Translations under genes and position numbers: made by a program | Part shown: positions 3,304-46,529 of the stretch, in pieces | Layout of the letters: every line of letters begins with the position of its first letter | Position numbering within the stretch: the stretch's first letter is position 1 | Source of the DNA: an uncultured bacterium | GTDB lineage: Bacteria > Elusimicrobiota > Elusimicrobia > Elusimicrobiales > Elusimicrobiaceae | Assembly (NCBI GenBank): GCA_949297775.1 | Contig: CASFTM010000001.1 | Span: forward strand, 62,001-126,000 | Length of the DNA: 64,000 nucleotides | Reading direction: 5' to 3' | The notes under the pieces: model-generated | What the model was told of the DNA's origin: nothing | Databases searched by the model: none | What the model saw: the letters and a program-made list of their open reading frames with translations, nothing else

Positions 3304-5708
<2,405 letters not shown>

Positions 5709-7913: not shown

Positions 7914-8748
7914 GCAGTTTCCCATGTTTGTACAGATACGACAACGCCGCACCCGTGGCGGTGGCGTAAATAGCGTTGGGCGGAATGATAAAATTTACAC
8001 CGTGCATTTTGTGCAGTGCCTGAAATACCCGCTTGGCAAACGGCACTTGCGTAAGCGTACCGGTAAGTACCACATCTTTTACGGCGTCGTTGCGGCAGGC
8101 AAAGACCGCCATCATCCCTATTGTTTGGAATACCATATTCAAAATACCCAGTGTCAAATCTTCCGGCGTAACGCCGTCTTCCATCTTGCCAAAATTGGAA
8201 GCCGTGGTATCCGGCGTAAGGGTAGAAATCACGCCTTTGCTGATATCGCAAATATTTAAATCCACCCGGTCCAGCTTACCGTTTTCGGCCAGTTCCACCA
8301 CCGTTTTAAAGGAAGTGGCGCCGCATAGTTTTTCACATAGGCCCAGCACCGTACCGCCGCCGACGCCTGACCCGCCGATATGGCGGATGCCGTCTTTGCC
8401 AGCGCGCACGAAAGCCGTCCCGGTCCCCATGCTGACAATCAATCCTTCCTTTTTGCCAGAAAGCGCCAGCCCGCCCGACCCGATGGCTACAAATTCATCC
8501 ACCGACGATGTGGGAATGCCGTAAATGTCTTTTTTGAACAAAGAAGACCCCACCCCCGTCAAAATAATTTGTACCACGTCCGAAAGGGCCAGGGCGTTTT
8601 CGTTGATAAATTTACCCAACGCGCCATAGGCGGATGTAAGCGGGTCGGCGGCTTCCACCTTGAGCATAGAAATCAGTTTGCCTTCGTCGGTATAACCTAC
8701 AATTTTAGTGGTGGAACCGCCAACGTCTATTCCAATCACAACGCTCAT
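7903..8748 (-). CDS. coaW: Type II pantothenate kinase (CoaW-like)
   Basis: Phosphorylates pantothenate, the first step of coenzyme A synthesis. The 281-residue protein has the actin/BadF-type ATPase fold: phosphate-1 loop GIDVGGSTTK at residues 6-15, SMGTGTAFV, and the type-II signature HIGGSGVGGGTVLGL. This differs from the usual type I (CoaA) or III (CoaX) kinases. It overlaps the stop of the M3 peptidase by four bases and the downstream phytoene-synthase-like gene by 11, so it sits in a tightly coupled operon. A BadF-type activator is a less likely alternative because it lacks the Fe-S Cys residues. Confidence 0.82.
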   Translation of the reverse strand: MSVVIGIDVGGSTTKIVGYTDEGKLISMLKVEAADPLTSAYGALGKFINENALALSDVVQIILTGVGSSLFKKDIYGIPTSSVDEFVAIGSGGLALSGKKEGLIVSMGTGTAFVRAGKDGIRHIGGSGVGGGTVLGLCEKLCGATSFKTVVELAENGKLDRVDLNICDISKGVISTLTPDTTASNFGKMEDGVTPEDLTLGILNMVFQTIGMMAVFACRNDAVKDVVLTGTLTQVPFAKRVFQALHKMHGVNFIIPPNAIYATATGAALSYLYKHGKLHVG

Positions 8749-10793
8749 AAATCCTCCTGACCAAGCCCGATGGACTGCAAGAAAGGCGTGATGTCCGCCG
8801 GGCGGCCCAAAAAGTTTTCCACCATTTTTTCTTCGTCTATGGTGCCGCCTTTTTCCAAAATTTCGCGGCGGAATTTTAAGCCCGTTTCGGGATTAAAAAT
8901 GCCGTTCTTTTTAAACTCGCCGAAGAAATCCTCCGCAATCACCTCCGACCATAAATACCCGTAATAGCCGGCGTCATACCCGCCCATAATGTGCCCGAAA
9001 GACGCCTGCGGGATGGTGCCTTTGGTAAGCGGCAGGCGGCGGATTTTTTTGGTCAAATCAAAATACAATTTGGTGGTATCCGGCGTGGATTTGGCAGTGT
9101 GGAGTGTCATATCGTACTGGGCAAAAAAATCCTGCCGCAAATAGGTGCCGCCGGAACCGAAATTTTTGGCGGCAATCATCCGTTCAATCAAATCATCCGG
9201 CAACGGCTCGCCCGTTTTATAGTGTTTGCTGATTTTTTTAAGCACCTGCGGGTCCCACGCCCAGCGTTCCAGCATTTGGCTGGGGGCTTCCACAAAGTCC
9301 CAGCTGACGCTGGTGCCGGAAAAAGCCGAATATTTGGACTTGGTCAGCGCGTTGTGCAGCACGTGCCCGAATTCGTGGAATAAGGTTTCCACTTCGCCGT
9401 GTTTTAACAGAGAAGGTGTTGCGGCGGAAGGTTTGTTCATATTGGCTACAATCGCTACAAACGGGGTTTGGTAAGTACCGTCTTGCTTTTCTTCCCCCTC
9501 CACCAGGCCAAAGCAGGCCGCGTGTTTGTATTTGCCTTCGCGCGGGTAAAGGTCCATATAAAAGTAAGCGATGAGTTCACCGCTTTGGCGGTCTTTGATT
9601 TTAAAGGCTTTTACGTCCGGGTGCCATACGGGAATGTCCGCCGGCTCAAACGTAATGCCAAACACTCCGCCGAATAAATCCAACATCCCGTCAACGACTA
9701 CCTGAGAGGGAAAATATTCCTTGATTTTTTCGCTGTCCAACTCCAGGTTTTCCTTGCGGTATTTGTTGCTCCAGTAGCCGCTTTCCCACGAATAAAGCGT
9801 ACGGCTTTTTTTGCCCGTCTTGCTGTTTTTGTAGGCGATCATTTCTTTGTCTTCTTTTTGGGCAAGTGGTTTTAATTTTTTTTGCAGATTTTTTAAAAAT
9901 TTCATCACCGTTTCGGGGTTTTTGGCCATACGGTCTTCCAACTTTAGCTGGGCGTGGTTTTCGTACCCCAATAATTGGGCAATCTGACGGCGCAGCGCAA
10001 GCGTTTTTTCCAAAAGTTCCACATTTTCCTGCCCGCCGCGGCGGTTGTATTTAAATTCCAGCGCTTTGCGGGCTTCTTCGTCGTCGGCGTTTAACATAAA
10101 CGGCACATAGTCCGGGTAATCCAGCGTAACGAGATATTTGCCGTCGTCGGTTTTTTCTAATTTTTCAATATAATCGTTTCCGAGTCCTTTTAATTGGTCC
10201 GCCGTAACCGCCAGGGGATCTTTATATTCCTGGATGTTTTTGTCAAACTTAATAATATATTCCGCTTTTTCTTTATTTAAGGCTTTAAATTTTTCCAACT
10301 CTTCATCATTTAATTCCATACCGCTGTTTTTAAAACCAATCAGCATTTCCTTTACCAATTTGGCCTGTACGGGGTCCAGCTGGGGGTTGGTGTCGGTATA
10401 TTCGCGGATGGCGCGGTACACATCGCGCCGGGTGGCAACATCCACCATATATTGGCTGATTTGCATTTGCAGCGCCAAGGCGGCATCGCGGAAGTTTTTG
10501 TCCGTAGATACGTAGGATAAAAACCCGCTCATACCCAGGGCGTTGCCGTACTTGTCAAACGCCCGTTCGTACGCCATAATGGTATTGTCAAACGTGCGCT
10601 GCTCTTTAGGTATGGCCACCAACGCCGCCAGGTCTTTTTCCAGCTGCACGCGCGCAGCCGCCTCGGCCGGGGCCAATTCCTCCGCCTTATAATCAAAATG
10701 TAACACGCCGTTTTTAAACATATCTGCCATACAATACGCTCCCGTAGCGGTAAAAAGCAATGCCGTAACTAAAAGAATTTTTGTTTTTTTCAT
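8745..10793 (-). CDS. Exported M3-family zinc oligopeptidase
   Basis: A 682-residue M3A metallopeptidase (thimet oligopeptidase / Dcp / OpdA relatives) that would cut short peptides. The zinc site HEFGH lies near residue 470 inside ETLFHEFGHVLH, with the family's downstream Glu and Tyr/His-rich helices (GGYDAGYYGYLWSE). An N-terminal hydrophobic segment (residues 5-20) is a signal peptide, placing the enzyme in the periplasm, whereas most M3 oligopeptidases are cytosolic. First gene of a four-gene overlapping operon with coaW. Confidence 0.92.
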   Translation of the reverse strand: MKKTKILLVTALLFTATGAYCMADMFKNGVLHFDYKAEELAPAEAAARVQLEKDLAALVAIPKEQRTFDNTIMAYERAFDKYGNALGMSGFLSYVSTDKNFRDAALALQMQISQYMVDVATRRDVYRAIREYTDTNPQLDPVQAKLVKEMLIGFKNSGMELNDEELEKFKALNKEKAEYIIKFDKNIQEYKDPLAVTADQLKGLGNDYIEKLEKTDDGKYLVTLDYPDYVPFMLNADDEEARKALEFKYNRRGGQENVELLEKTLALRRQIAQLLGYENHAQLKLEDRMAKNPETVMKFLKNLQKKLKPLAQKEDKEMIAYKNSKTGKKSRTLYSWESGYWSNKYRKENLELDSEKIKEYFPSQVVVDGMLDLFGGVFGITFEPADIPVWHPDVKAFKIKDRQSGELIAYFYMDLYPREGKYKHAACFGLVEGEEKQDGTYQTPFVAIVANMNKPSAATPSLLKHGEVETLFHEFGHVLHNALTKSKYSAFSGTSVSWDFVEAPSQMLERWAWDPQVLKKISKHYKTGEPLPDDLIERMIAAKNFGSGGTYLRQDFFAQYDMTLHTAKSTPDTTKLYFDLTKKIRRLPLTKGTIPQASFGHIMGGYDAGYYGYLWSEVIAEDFFGEFKKNGIFNPETGLKFRREILEKGGTIDEEKMVENFLGRPADITPFLQSIGLGQEDL

Positions 10794-38670: not shown

Positions 38671-38905
38671 GTTAGTAATAGGCTTTCAATTGCCGGGCGC
38701 ACACAAGGCCCGGCTGTTTTTTTGCAGAAGGTATAACCGGCGCCGTGTTGCAGAACGGCATTTGGTGTATGGTTTTTATTGGAAAAGTTTCCACGTACCG
38801 CTTTAGATTTAATACAATAAAAGAAAGACAAAAAGAATAGCTTTTTTGTTGAAAGTTTTTTATAATATAAATATATTTACCGCTCGGTAGAAAACCGGGG
38901 AATTT

Positions 38906-39163
38906 ATGGCGTTGGGACCGTTCAGCAAACAGGACCATTTGCAGATTACCACCTTAGGTTTGGAATTTGCCGTTTCGGAAATTCTGTGCGTATGGGCCGG
39001 GTATTGGATGGATAAAAAACTGGGGTCATTCCCGTGGGGCATTATTGTGGGTGCGGTGGCCGGGTTTGGATTGGGGTTTTACCAAATTCTGCGGGCCGCC
39101 AAACAAATGGCGCGGGAAAACGCCAATTTACAAAAGGCAGAAAAAAAAGATGGACGTCGTTGA
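38906..39163 (+). CDS. atpZ: AtpZ/AtpI-family ATP synthase assembly protein
   Basis: An 85-residue membrane protein with two transmembrane segments (about residues 18-36 and 43-61) and a charged tail. The pattern EFAVSEILCVWAGYWMDKKLG then WGIIVGAVAGFGLGFYQ matches the AtpZ/AtpI (Gene1) family, which helps c-ring assembly or ion handling. It heads the atp operon and overlaps atpB by 14 bases. Confidence 0.82.
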   Translation: MALGPFSKQDHLQITTLGLEFAVSEILCVWAGYWMDKKLGSFPWGIIVGAVAGFGLGFYQILRAAKQMARENANLQKAEKKDGRR

Positions 39164-39911
39164 AATTATTTCTCATCATATTTTAGACCACGACTGGGGG
39201 GTTACCCTCGGCGGGTTTCGTCTTCCGATTACTACGCACACCGTTACGCTCTTTGCCGTAAGCCTTGTGCTGTTGCTGGGGTTGTATTGGATATCATTGG
39301 GGCGGCAAAGCCGGGCAGGCCGCTTGCTGACTACTTTGACAGAAGAATACGTAGCTTTTATCCGTGACGGTATGGTACTGCCGAATATGGGTGAAGAAGG
39401 CCGCCGCTTCCTGCCGTATTTCTGCACGCTGTTTTTGTTTGTGCTATGTTGCGCGCTGGTGGGGCTGATTCCCAATATGAAAACCGCCACCGCCAATATT
39501 TCCGTTACCGCCGCACTGGCTTTATGCTCCGGCGGGCTTATTTTATATTGTGGGCTTAAATTCCACGGGTTTGTCGGCTTTTTGAAAGGCTTTGTCCCTT
39601 CCGGCACGCCGGGGTGGCTGGTGCCGCTGTTGTTCCCGCTGGAAGTATTGAGTTTAATTATTAAAGTGTGCGTGCTGGCTATCCGTTTGTTTGCCAATAT
39701 GCTTTCGGGGCATATGGTGCTGATTTGTTTGCTGCTGATTATTTTTATTGTCGGGCAAATGCATATTGCCGCCGGCGCCGGGGCCTTTTTGCCGGCGATG
39801 GCGCTGGAACTGTTTATGACGTGTCTGGAATTGTTGGTGGCGTTTTTGCAGGCGTATGTGTTTACGCTTTTAACCAGCATTTTTGCGGGCTCGGTCATTC
39901 ACACGCATTAA
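39150..39911 (+). CDS. atpB: ATP synthase F0 subunit a
   Basis: Forms the proton half-channels next to the c-ring. The 253-residue protein has about six transmembrane segments; the essential Arg is in VLAIRLFANMLSGHM, and GLIPNMK and the N-terminal H-x2-D region are family features. ATG at 39150 gives the usual length; an upstream in-frame extension inside atpZ is rejected. Confidence 0.95.
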   Translation: MDVVEIISHHILDHDWGVTLGGFRLPITTHTVTLFAVSLVLLLGLYWISLGRQSRAGRLLTTLTEEYVAFIRDGMVLPNMGEEGRRFLPYFCTLFLFVLCCALVGLIPNMKTATANISVTAALALCSGGLILYCGLKFHGFVGFLKGFVPSGTPGWLVPLLFPLEVLSLIIKVCVLAIRLFANMLSGHMVLICLLLIIFIVGQMHIAAGAGAFLPAMALELFMTCLELLVAFLQAYVFTLLTSIFAGSVIHTH

Positions 39912-39959
39912 TTTAAAAATCTATCAAAAATGGGGATTTCCCCAAAAGGAGAAGAATAT

Positions 39960-40190
39960 ATGGAACTCGTAGCACTGAAATACATCGCCGCCGGTATCGG
40001 CGCGGGACTCACCGTAATTGGTGCGGGTCTTGGGTTGGGCAAAATCGGTAACGCCGCGTTGGAAGGTACGGCCCGTCAGCCGGAAGCCGGTTCCGATTTG
40101 CGCTCCACGATGATTATTATTGCCGCGTTGTTGGAAGGGGCCGCCATGTTGGGTCTGGTCATCTGCCTGCTGACGCTGGTACTCAAATAA
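39960..40190 (+). CDS. atpE: ATP synthase F0 subunit c
   Basis: The rotor-ring hairpin of 76 residues: helix 1 with GAGLGLGKIG, the polar loop RQPEAGS and helix 2 with ion-binding Glu59 in IIAALLEGAAMLG. The Gln of helix 1 and the Glu-Ser/Thr pair of sodium-type rings are absent (Leu and Gly-Ala instead), so proton coupling is more likely. ATG at 39960 follows GGAGAAG. Confidence 0.95.
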   Translation: MELVALKYIAAGIGAGLTVIGAGLGLGKIGNAALEGTARQPEAGSDLRSTMIIIAALLEGAAMLGLVICLLTLVLK

Positions 40191-40208: not shown

Positions 40209-40703
40209 ATGGAGAATTTGTTAAAGCCGGACTACGGCGTGCTCGTACTGACCATCTGCAACTTTCTGCTGTTGGTGTATTTGCTTAAAAAATTTGCGTG
40301 GAACCGCATTATTGGCGCGTTGGAACAGCGCGAAAAGCAAATAGCCGATGACAAACAGCAGGCGCAGGACGCCCGCGCCGCCGCGGAAACACTCAAACGC
40401 GAATTGGACGCGAAACTGGCCCAAATTTCGGACGAAGCCGCCAAACGGATGGCGGAAGCCGTAAAATTGGGCGAAACGCAGAAAGAACAAATCCTGTCCG
40501 CCGCCAAGGAGCAATCCGAACGGCTGCTGGAACAAGCCAAAACGCAGATTGAGGCGGAAAAGAACAAAGCTTTGGCCGATGTACGCGGCGAAATTGCGCG
40601 TACGGCGGTACTGGCTGCCTCCAAAGTGGTGCAGCAGCAAATGAGCGAAGAATCCGCCAAACAGGTAGTGGACCGCGTTTTACAAGAAATTAAAGCGAAG
40701 TAA
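40209..40703 (+). CDS. atpF: ATP synthase F0 subunit b
   Basis: Peripheral stalk of 164 residues: one N-terminal transmembrane helix (residues about 9-27) followed by a long charged coiled coil rich in Ala, Glu, Gln and Lys (residues 35-160), as expected for b. Lies between atpE and atpH. Confidence 0.95.
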   Translation: MENLLKPDYGVLVLTICNFLLLVYLLKKFAWNRIIGALEQREKQIADDKQQAQDARAAAETLKRELDAKLAQISDEAAKRMAEAVKLGETQKEQILSAAKEQSERLLEQAKTQIEAEKNKALADVRGEIARTAVLAASKVVQQQMSEESAKQVVDRVLQEIKAK

Positions 40704-40707
40704 CGAT

Positions 40708-41235
40708 ATGAACAGTTCAGACAGAATAGCGGTGCAGCGTTACGCCGCCGCTTACGACGGGTTAAGCCAAACAGACGAACAGGCCGTGCGCCGCGCGGAA
40801 GATTTGCGCGCCGCCGCCCGGGCGTTGGATGCCGTGCGCGGCTATATGACCAGCCCGCGTGTGATGACGCAGCAAAAAAAGCAAACCGTCCGCGCGGCTT
40901 TACAACACGCGCCGGAAACGGCGTCGTTTGTGGAACTGTTGATTGACGCCAAACGGTACGCGCTTTTGGATGCTGTTACCCGCCGGGTGGGGGAATTGTT
41001 GGATAACCGGCTGGGCATTGTGCGGGCGGAGGTTGTATCGGCCCGCGCGTTAAGCGCCGCGCAGCAAAAAGAAACGCAAGAGGCCCTTTCGTCGCGCTAC
41101 GGCGGACGGGTGGAAGCGGTTTTTACGGTGGATCCCGCGCTGTTGGGCGGGCTTAAAATCCGCTGCCGGGGCGAACTGATAGACGGCAGCCTGCAGGGGC
41201 GTTTAGCCAAACTGCAGGAAGAATTGACACATTAA
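40708..41235 (+). CDS. atpH: ATP synthase F1 subunit delta
   Basis: Links F1 to the stalk. The 175-residue product has the six-helix N domain and the C-terminal motif GGLKIRCRGELIDGSLQGRLAKL that matches the family's GGxxxxxGxxxxDxSxxxxLxxL. It starts four bases after atpF. Confidence 0.95.
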   Translation: MNSSDRIAVQRYAAAYDGLSQTDEQAVRRAEDLRAAARALDAVRGYMTSPRVMTQQKKQTVRAALQHAPETASFVELLIDAKRYALLDAVTRRVGELLDNRLGIVRAEVVSARALSAAQQKETQEALSSRYGGRVEAVFTVDPALLGGLKIRCRGELIDGSLQGRLAKLQEELTH

Positions 41236-42783
<1,548 letters not shown>

Positions 42784-43722
42784 ATGGACGCTAAAACGAA
42801 GAAAAAATATTTGGTTACCGGCGGCGCCGGGTTCATCGGCAGCAACATTGCCAAAACCCTGGAAGCCCAAGGCCACGAAGTGACCGTACTGGATGATTTT
42901 TCCAAAAACGGACATTTCAAAAACTTAATCGGCTTTAAAGGCGACGTCATTACCGCGGACCTGTTTGAATATATGCCCACGGATATGTATTTTGACGCCA
43001 TTTTCCACGAGGCCGCCATTACCGATACCACCGTTATGGACCAAAAAGCCATGATGGAACAAAATGTGGAAGCGTTCAAAAACCTGCTGAACTTTGCGGC
43101 GGAAAACGATATTAAAAAAGTGATTTACGCTTCTTCCGCCGCCACCTACGGCAACGGCCCCGTGCCCAATGTGGAAACGCAGCCCACGCACCCGGAAAAC
43201 GTATACGGTTTTTCCAAGGTGATTATGGATAACGTCGCCCGCCAGTTTGCGGAAGACAATAACGATATGACCATTATCGGCCTGCGCTACTTCAACGTGT
43301 ACGGCCCGGGCGAATACTTTAAGGGCAAAATGGCCAGCATGGTGTACCAGCTGTACAACCAGATGAAAGCCGGCCAGCGCCCGCGCGTATTTAAATATGG
43401 CGAACAACAGCGCGATTTTGTGTATGTCAAAGACATCGTCAAAATCAACCTGTGCGCGCTCAATAACGGCAAGGAAACCGGCGTCTACAACGCCGCCACC
43501 GGCATTCCGCGCGACTATAATGCCATCATTGCGTGCTTAAACAAAGAACTGGGCACCCACCTGGAACCCGAATACATTGATAACCCGTATCCGTTCTTCC
43601 AGCTTAAAACACAGGCGGATATGACGCTGGCGAAGGAAAAACTCGGCTACGAACCGGATTATTCGCTGGAAGCCGGCATCGCCGACTATGTGTCCATCTT
43701 GGAAGGCCGCAACCAGAAATAG
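42784..43722 (+). CDS. hldD: NAD-dependent epimerase, ADP-heptose 6-epimerase-like
   Basis: A 312-residue extended short-chain dehydrogenase: Rossmann motif GGAGFIGSN near residue 13, catalytic Ser-Tyr-Lys (ASSAATYG and VYGFSK) and the HldD/RfaD-type region RYFNVYGPGEY, KMASMVYQLYNQMKAG and KYGEQQRDFVYVKDI. HldD inverts C6 of ADP-D-glycero-D-manno-heptose for the LPS core; a related sugar epimerase is possible. Its place between atpA and atpG is unusual: it starts on the base after the atpA stop and ends nine bases before atpG. Confidence 0.82.
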   Translation: MDAKTKKKYLVTGGAGFIGSNIAKTLEAQGHEVTVLDDFSKNGHFKNLIGFKGDVITADLFEYMPTDMYFDAIFHEAAITDTTVMDQKAMMEQNVEAFKNLLNFAAENDIKKVIYASSAATYGNGPVPNVETQPTHPENVYGFSKVIMDNVARQFAEDNNDMTIIGLRYFNVYGPGEYFKGKMASMVYQLYNQMKAGQRPRVFKYGEQQRDFVYVKDIVKINLCALNNGKETGVYNAATGIPRDYNAIIACLNKELGTHLEPEYIDNPYPFFQLKTQADMTLAKEKLGYEPDYSLEAGIADYVSILEGRNQK

Positions 43723-43731
43723 GATTATTCC

Positions 43732-46073
<2,342 letters not shown>

Positions 46074-46076
46074 GCT

Positions 46077-46487
46077 ATGTCCAAACAACTGACCCTAAAC
46101 CTAATTACGCCGGAAAAACAGCTCATCTCCAACTTGCAGGTGGATATGGTTATTCTGCCTGCTTTGTTGGGGGAAATGGGCATTTTGCCCGGGCACGTCA
46201 AAACGATTGTGCAGCTGGGTATGGGTTCCTTGCGTTATAAAAAGGACGGGAAGGAAGAAGAATTCGCCGCACTGGGCGGGTTTGTGGAAGTGCTAAACGA
46301 TGTAGTAAACGTGTTTGCCGAGGGAGCGGCCCTTGCCGATGAAATTGACGAGGAAGCCGAAAGACAAAAAATCAAAGCCGCCAAAGAATCCCTCTCCCGC
46401 AAGGACGCCGATATTGATTTTGAACTCGCGGAGATTGAAATCAAGCAGGCCATCGCTCGGATGAAAGTGAAAAAGCGACATATGTAA
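46077..46487 (+). CDS. atpC: ATP synthase F1 subunit epsilon
   Basis: Inhibitory/rotor subunit of 136 residues: N-terminal beta sandwich with GEMGILPGHV and GFVEVLNDVVNVFAE, then a C-terminal helical pair. Last gene of the atp operon, three bases after atpD; its stop is followed by a terminator. Confidence 0.94.
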   Translation: MSKQLTLNLITPEKQLISNLQVDMVILPALLGEMGILPGHVKTIVQLGMGSLRYKKDGKEEEFAALGGFVEVLNDVVNVFAEGAALADEIDEEAERQKIKAAKESLSRKDADIDFELAEIEIKQAIARMKVKKRHM

Positions 46488-46499
46488 TGCGTTGTTTTG

Positions 46500-46529
46500 A
46501 AAAAGCCCCGCCTTGGTGTGGGGCTTTTT
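46500..46529 (+). terminator. Intrinsic terminator of the atp operon
   Basis: AAAAGCCCC (46501-46509) pairs with GGGGCTTTT (46520-46528) around a ten-base loop, ending in five T. Confidence 0.8.

Follow-up and report, generated by a model that had tools for sequence, protein, structure and literature searches.

The bacterial atp operon has one of the most conserved gene orders known, and the locus described here raises the question of why a gene for a sugar-nucleotide epimerase stands in the middle of it, and whether its product serves the ATP synthase or the synthesis of heptose. The gene, hldD, whose product acts late in the synthesis of an outer-membrane sugar, was found between atpA and atpG in the window, by which we mean the whole stretch of 64,000 nucleotides that was analysed. 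The reading that we put forward, with a probability of about 0.85, is that the atp operon acquired the gene of an ordinary epimerase at an early stage and has retained it as a co-expressed passenger, not as a part of the ATP synthase.

As shown in Table 1, the genes of the operon lie on one strand in the order AtpZ-like gene, atpB, E, F, H, A, hldD, G, D, C, and the operon is otherwise complete. The open reading frame of hldD encodes 312 amino acids, begins with ATG and has no internal stops. The stop codon of atpA (TAA, 42781-42783) is followed by the ATG of hldD at 42784 with a gap of 0 nt, and the stop of hldD is separated from the start of atpG by 9 nt. The earlier note had placed an HldD-like epimerase between atpA and atpG, directly after the atpA stop and in an atp operon otherwise complete and in standard order, and both the reading frame and the NCBIfam matches of the neighbours agree with this description. 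Compared with the usual bacterial F-type ATP synthase operon (atpIBEFHAGDC, which we take to be the order in E. coli), all eight structural subunits are encoded on one strand and in the customary order. The window differs in that the gene of a metabolic enzyme separates atpA from atpG, and in its leading gene, which is AtpZ-like and gave no NCBIfam match at E<=0.001, so that an identity as atpI is unsupported. Just 3' of atpC lies a pfkB-family kinase gene (46544 to about 47410), which is unmatched in several near relatives (e.g. L021, L024, L027); these relatives do retain the Band 7 gene that follows it, as well as the atp genes.

Table 1. Features of the atp operon and the inserted gene in the window.
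Feature	Position	Strand	Evidence
Sigma-70-like promoter candidate 5' of the operon	38849-38877	+	consensus match only, 10/12 positions
atpZ-like gene, first of the operon	38906-39163	+	PF09527 (ATPase_gene1, AtpZ-like)
atpB (F0 subunit a)	39150-39911	+	NCBIfam; start picked by us inside the open frame
atpE (F0 subunit c)	39930-40190	+	position and sequence, without a family search of its own
atpF (F0 subunit b)	40209-40703	+	NCBIfam
atpH (F1 delta)	40708-41235	+	NCBIfam
atpA (F1 alpha)	41248-42783	+	TIGR00962, 815.1 bits
Shine-Dalgarno-like AGGAG for hldD, within the last codons of atpA	42773-42777	+	sequence; similar in many relatives
hldD (ADP-glyceromanno-heptose 6-epimerase), inserted gene	42784-43722	+	ORF, profile match, catalytic residues
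atpG (F1 gamma)	43732-44634	+	NCBIfam
atpD (F1 beta)	44655-46073	+	NCBIfam
atpC (F1 epsilon)	46077-46487	+	NCBIfam
Terminator-like hairpin with T tail, 3' of atpC	46510-46524	+	consensus match only

To compare this arrangement with that of relatives, the best 80 loci of a genome collection were chosen by HldD similarity (59-99% identity); the source was named Elusimicrobium or Elusimicrobia for 69 of them. The next searched gene upstream of hldD on the same strand was atpA in 80/80 loci, and atpG was found downstream in 79/80, the lone miss being L072, where the contig ends. Since the genome of the window is a draft in 32 contigs, two loci could in principle have been joined falsely during assembly or binning. 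Such an artefact has a negligible probability when the same neighbours recur in all these loci up to that contig end, and when the same arrangement is seen in the single-contig genome G071. The earlier note had named an assembly join within atpA-atpG, or an insertion absent in all relatives, as results that would speak against it; the former is excluded by the recurring neighbours, and comparison of the relatives' atp operons showed the insertion to be present.

The extent of the linkage was then counted in a second sample, a draw of 149 genomes from the phylum Elusimicrobiota that partly overlapped the genomes of the 80 loci, with hldD counted as linked when at most 1500 nt from atpA. Linkage was found in 55/57 genomes of the window's order. 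The two others were G033, in which the locus is split over two contigs and the start of hldD is yet seen after atpA, and G159, which matched neither hldD nor atpA. Among the other genomes of the class Elusimicrobia, 10/14 were linked; in G069 and G144 the gene is elsewhere, in G096 hldD was not found at the search threshold, and in G102 the HldD is of the E. coli type and atpA was unmatched. Outside the class, inspection by eye showed linkage in 0/78 genomes of the draw; both genes were present in 44 of these 78, sharing a contig in only 4, where 26 kb or more separated them. The suggestion that the insertion may be a lineage marker thus emerged stronger than first stated, although the marker is imperfect, as G040 (a further genome of the order), G069, G096 and G144 are without the linkage. 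Judged from these sequence comparisons, the placement of hldD inside the atp operon is genuine and ancient, and it has been retained widely through the class Elusimicrobia, in gut members as well as environmental relatives. Because the order of atp genes is so conserved, it is unusual for a foreign enzyme gene to persist among them in most of the sampled genomes of a class; no earlier report of the arrangement was found in the part of the open-access literature that was searched.

The junctions of the inserted gene were similar in most relatives. The distance from the atpA stop to the hldD start was -4 to 20 nt in 76 of the 80 loci (exceptions: L031, L076, L080 and L095), and 4-nt overlaps were seen in L087, L089, L094, L106 and L109. 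Six class-level loci (L107, L108, L110, L111, L114 and L115) have a gap of 421-494 nt. In the window, hldD is on the same strand as the atp genes with short gaps, and a consensus scan of the + strand from atpA through hldD to the atpG start gave neither promoter-like nor terminator-like sites, leaving both borders free of them; such a scan is weak evidence, as it gave 10 promoter-like sites against a shuffled mean of 6.2 and 17 terminator-like sites against 14.4. The claim in the earlier note that hldD is coupled to ATP synthase expression is likely to hold, given the spacing of 0 and 9 nt in the window and junctions that are likewise short, or overlap, in relatives. hldD would be co-transcribed with the atp genes and read from the atp transcript, using a ribosome-binding site of its own that overlaps the end of atpA.

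Some junctions carry additional DNA. In L111, an ORF of 143 amino acids (8450-8881) lies between atpA and hldD and overlaps the atpA stop by 4 nt; it gave no Pfam or NCBIfam match. About 590 nt are inserted between atpA and hldD in L137 (G154), and about 1.2 kb between hldD and atpG in L135 (G148). In L031, the frame of atpA (~3680-5209) was read as ending about 560 nt early and the alignment runs through, which could be a frameshift, a stop or an assembly error.

The identity of the product was examined by profile search, structure match and alignment. The window HldD scored 313.8 bits against TIGR02197, above the equivalog cut-off of 274.6, with residues 10-306 covering profile positions 2-313 of 316, and this score and match length ruled out chance similarity. 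Its best solved relative was 3sxp (250.4 bits), labelled ADP-L-glycero-D-mannoheptose-6-epimerase and presumably HP0859 of H. pylori, and the E. coli structure 1eq2 scored 176.5 bits. The window protein is thus nearer to 3sxp than to 1eq2, whereas for the L120 copy, from another family of the phylum, the order is reversed (99.0 and 229.9 bits, respectively). The NAD-binding motif TGGAGFIG was found at T12-G19, and S118, Y141, K145 and K180 were invariant in 50/50 aligned HldDs of the phylum (43 linked, 3 orphan and 4 E. coli-type); their catalytic roles are those we assume from the E. coli enzyme. Aligned to 1eq2, the window HldD therefore fits the family signature of NAD-binding motif, catalytic Ser, Tyr-x3-Lys and second Lys, and it shares with the HldD/RfaD proteins 1eq2 and 3sxp the fold family, these residues and a full-length match. 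In PMC8204981, HP0859 is described as the HldD of H. pylori, whose knockout is reported to give truncated LPS. PMC10269868 places hldD of H. pylori in a heptose gene cluster, in contrast to its place in the atp operon of the window.

Candidates for the partners of HldD in the ADP-heptose pathway, as in other HldD/RfaD systems, were found in the window's genome. This genome has a single TIGR02197 match at E<=1e-60, among 8 PF01370 matches. Lower profile scores had raised the idea of a diverged, atp-linked paralogue accompanying a 'real' HldD; for this genome, the single match ruled it out. Specific cut-offs were passed by heptose-7-P kinase (371.1 bits, cut-off 345, contig C15) and by the adenylyltransferase (188.3 bits, cut-off 181.5). 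The GmhA candidate, at about 190 bits, is under its specific-model cut-off of 209.45, and the GmhB candidate passes the general TIGR01656 model with scores under the cut-offs of the GmhB models (148.4 vs 178 and 110.2 vs 149.6). On contig C15, heptose kinase, the GmhB candidate, KdsB and an LpxL-like gene are clustered together. A GT9 protein on contig C30 passes the heptosyltransferase II model (200 bits, cut-off 134.6), and its gene follows a KDO-transferase candidate that is under its own cut-off. The pfkB-like kinase downstream of the operon was considered as heptose kinase and rejected, with 46.8 bits to TIGR02198 vs 371.1 for the gene on C15. The other heptose pathway genes lie on contigs C2, C6, C15 and C30, apart from the atp operon, and the atp-embedded hldD is the gene that fills the sole empty place in this otherwise scattered LPS inner-core pathway. 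The end use of the window HldD would then be LPS. Outside the class, six genomes (G042, G046, G052, G055, G074 and G078) have matches to GmhA and the adenylyltransferase, whereas HldD was unmatched at E<=1e-60; such lineages may rely on D,D-heptose or on a different epimerase.

The profile score, the catalytic residues, the nearest solved structure and the candidates for the rest of the pathway all support the identification as HldD made in the earlier note, and the protein would be expected to have epimerase activity, as predicted from its sequence. It could still be an HldD-like SDR epimerase that acts on another sugar-nucleotide substrate, given that the epimerase family is broad, with the 8 PF01370 members of this genome, that a long branch splits its clade from E. 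coli-type HldD, and that 8 of the 121 genomes with a TIGR02197 match, all in the class and outside the window's order, score 259-274.2 bits, under the cut-off of 274.6. We regard this as quite improbable, since the window protein itself exceeds the equivalog cut-off, its closest solved relative carries the HldD label, the remaining pathway has candidates and lacks a second HldD, and in G040, a genome without the atp-type gene, an E. coli-type HldD stands in for it.

The case of G040 also bears on the relation to the ATP synthase. This genome belongs to the window's order and was outside the draw of 149; its atpA is directly followed by atpG, it is without an atp-type HldD, and its best match, 39% identical, is an E. 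coli-type HldD of 395.6 bits. One HldD type thus seems, from these matches, to stand in for the other, as would be expected if the embedded gene encodes a working epimerase and not a part of the ATP synthase. The replacement argument is incomplete, because no adenylyltransferase was found at E<=1e-30 in this genome, which is 89% complete. In G119, of the window's genus, both types were found (two copies, L118:7851-8837 and L117:7546-8481), the atp-linked one with 319.5 bits and the E. coli-type one, about 38 kb from it, with 386.5 bits; this double state may be how replacement begins.

Operons with an empty site were found elsewhere as well. In G069, G096 and G144, as in G040, the atp gene that follows atpA is atpG and hldD is missing from the junction, and the same holds for 12/14 operons fetched from outside the class, atpG being unrecognised in the other two. 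An accessory subunit of the ATP synthase would be expected wherever this ATP synthase occurs, and HldD failed this expectation in G040, G069, G096 and G144. In G067, of another family of the phylum, a more distant SDR epimerase (L129:11763-12668, 29% identity) lies about 0.9 kb 3' of atpC. In G049, outside the class, an HldD of the atp-linked type was found (L116:2285-3193); there was no atpA match, and other atp operon genes were unrecognised within the 9 kb fetched.

To trace the descent of the linkage, trees and distances were compared. On an AtpA tree of 59 loci that we chose from those fetched (L087 was dropped as too short, and L129 was labelled 'empty' by hand, its match being a different epimerase about 3.6 kb off), the linked state was strongly clustered, with 3 changes against a shuffled mean of 14.9. 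Of 42 linked loci, 40 had all five genes, and in these the HldD pairwise distances correlated with those of AtpA (Mantel r 0.767; 0/999 permutations as high), AtpG (0.770), AtpB (0.733) and AtpD (0.615), compared with 0.907 for AtpA-AtpG and 0.757 for AtpA-AtpD. This agreement of sequence distances fits shared descent, slightly looser than between the best-matched atp genes. In the HldD tree, the 43 linked copies and those of G069, G144 and G049 formed one group, and the four E. coli-type copies stood apart with support of 100. A single clade of linked HldDs without the G069, G144 and G049 copies was rejected (p 0.0005), and the same one-clade test on the linked AtpAs was not significant (p 0.077); the root of the trees is unsure, and the outgroup branches are long. 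The simplest reading would be a single early capture, after which the gene escaped in G069 and G144 and was lost in G096.

The dN/dS of hldD was 0.010-0.063 in the 7 usable pairs of 8, the eighth being saturated, and was under that of atpA in 5/7 pairs, which points to strong purifying selection in the sequences compared. In 8/8 genomes compared, HldD was more similar to the window's protein than were GmhA and the adenylyltransferase, with the provisos that the GmhA of G018 (49%) is probably not an orthologue and that in G010 the lower-scoring of two GmhA matches, thought to be the orthologue, was taken.

Such conservation might be taken to mean that HldD has a second role in the ATP synthase, as an assembly factor, a chaperone or a regulator of alpha or gamma, which keeps it between atpA and atpG. 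The retention of the linkage over most of the class, a conservation of hldD that is among the highest in the operon (dN/dS 0.010-0.063) and its higher identity than GmhA and adenylyltransferase in all eight genomes would agree with such a role. We consider it very unlikely, as ATP synthase operons persist without hldD in four genomes of the class and in 12 of the 14 outside it, hldD survives off the operon in G069 and G144, and all catalytic residues are kept.

The other alternative, which is compatible with the passenger reading, is adaptive coupling, in which the supply of heptose follows the growth-rate or energy control of the ATP synthase. Long retention, many junctions that overlap or are near zero, and strong purifying selection are in its favour. 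The other pathway genes, however, are on other contigs, so that the pathway as a whole is uncoupled; hldD is elsewhere in two lineages, of the E. coli type in one and missing in one; and long retention in an essential operon would also be expected without any benefit, presumably because clean removal is rare. We therefore hold adaptive coupling to be unlikely. That selection has built a regulatory link between the supply of outer-membrane heptose and the expression of the ATP synthase in this class, or that HldD was recruited there as an accessory factor of the enzyme, is likewise doubtful, and neither a benefit of coupling nor a role in the ATP synthase is needed to explain the data.

Under the preferred reading of a captured passenger, hldD would have been inserted between atpA and atpG at an early point in the history of the class Elusimicrobia and passed down at this site ever since, and its product would be functional, expressed with the ATP synthase and working in heptose synthesis. 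According to PMC10269868, ADP-heptose is a signal to host cells, and its control in gut bacteria is for this reason of some wider interest. The arrangement provides a gene-order marker for Elusimicrobia and a simple test case for whether or not the supply of a cell-envelope sugar is coupled to energy metabolism, and the filled and empty atpA-atpG sites offer a case in which the gain, loss and replacement of genes within essential operons can be studied.
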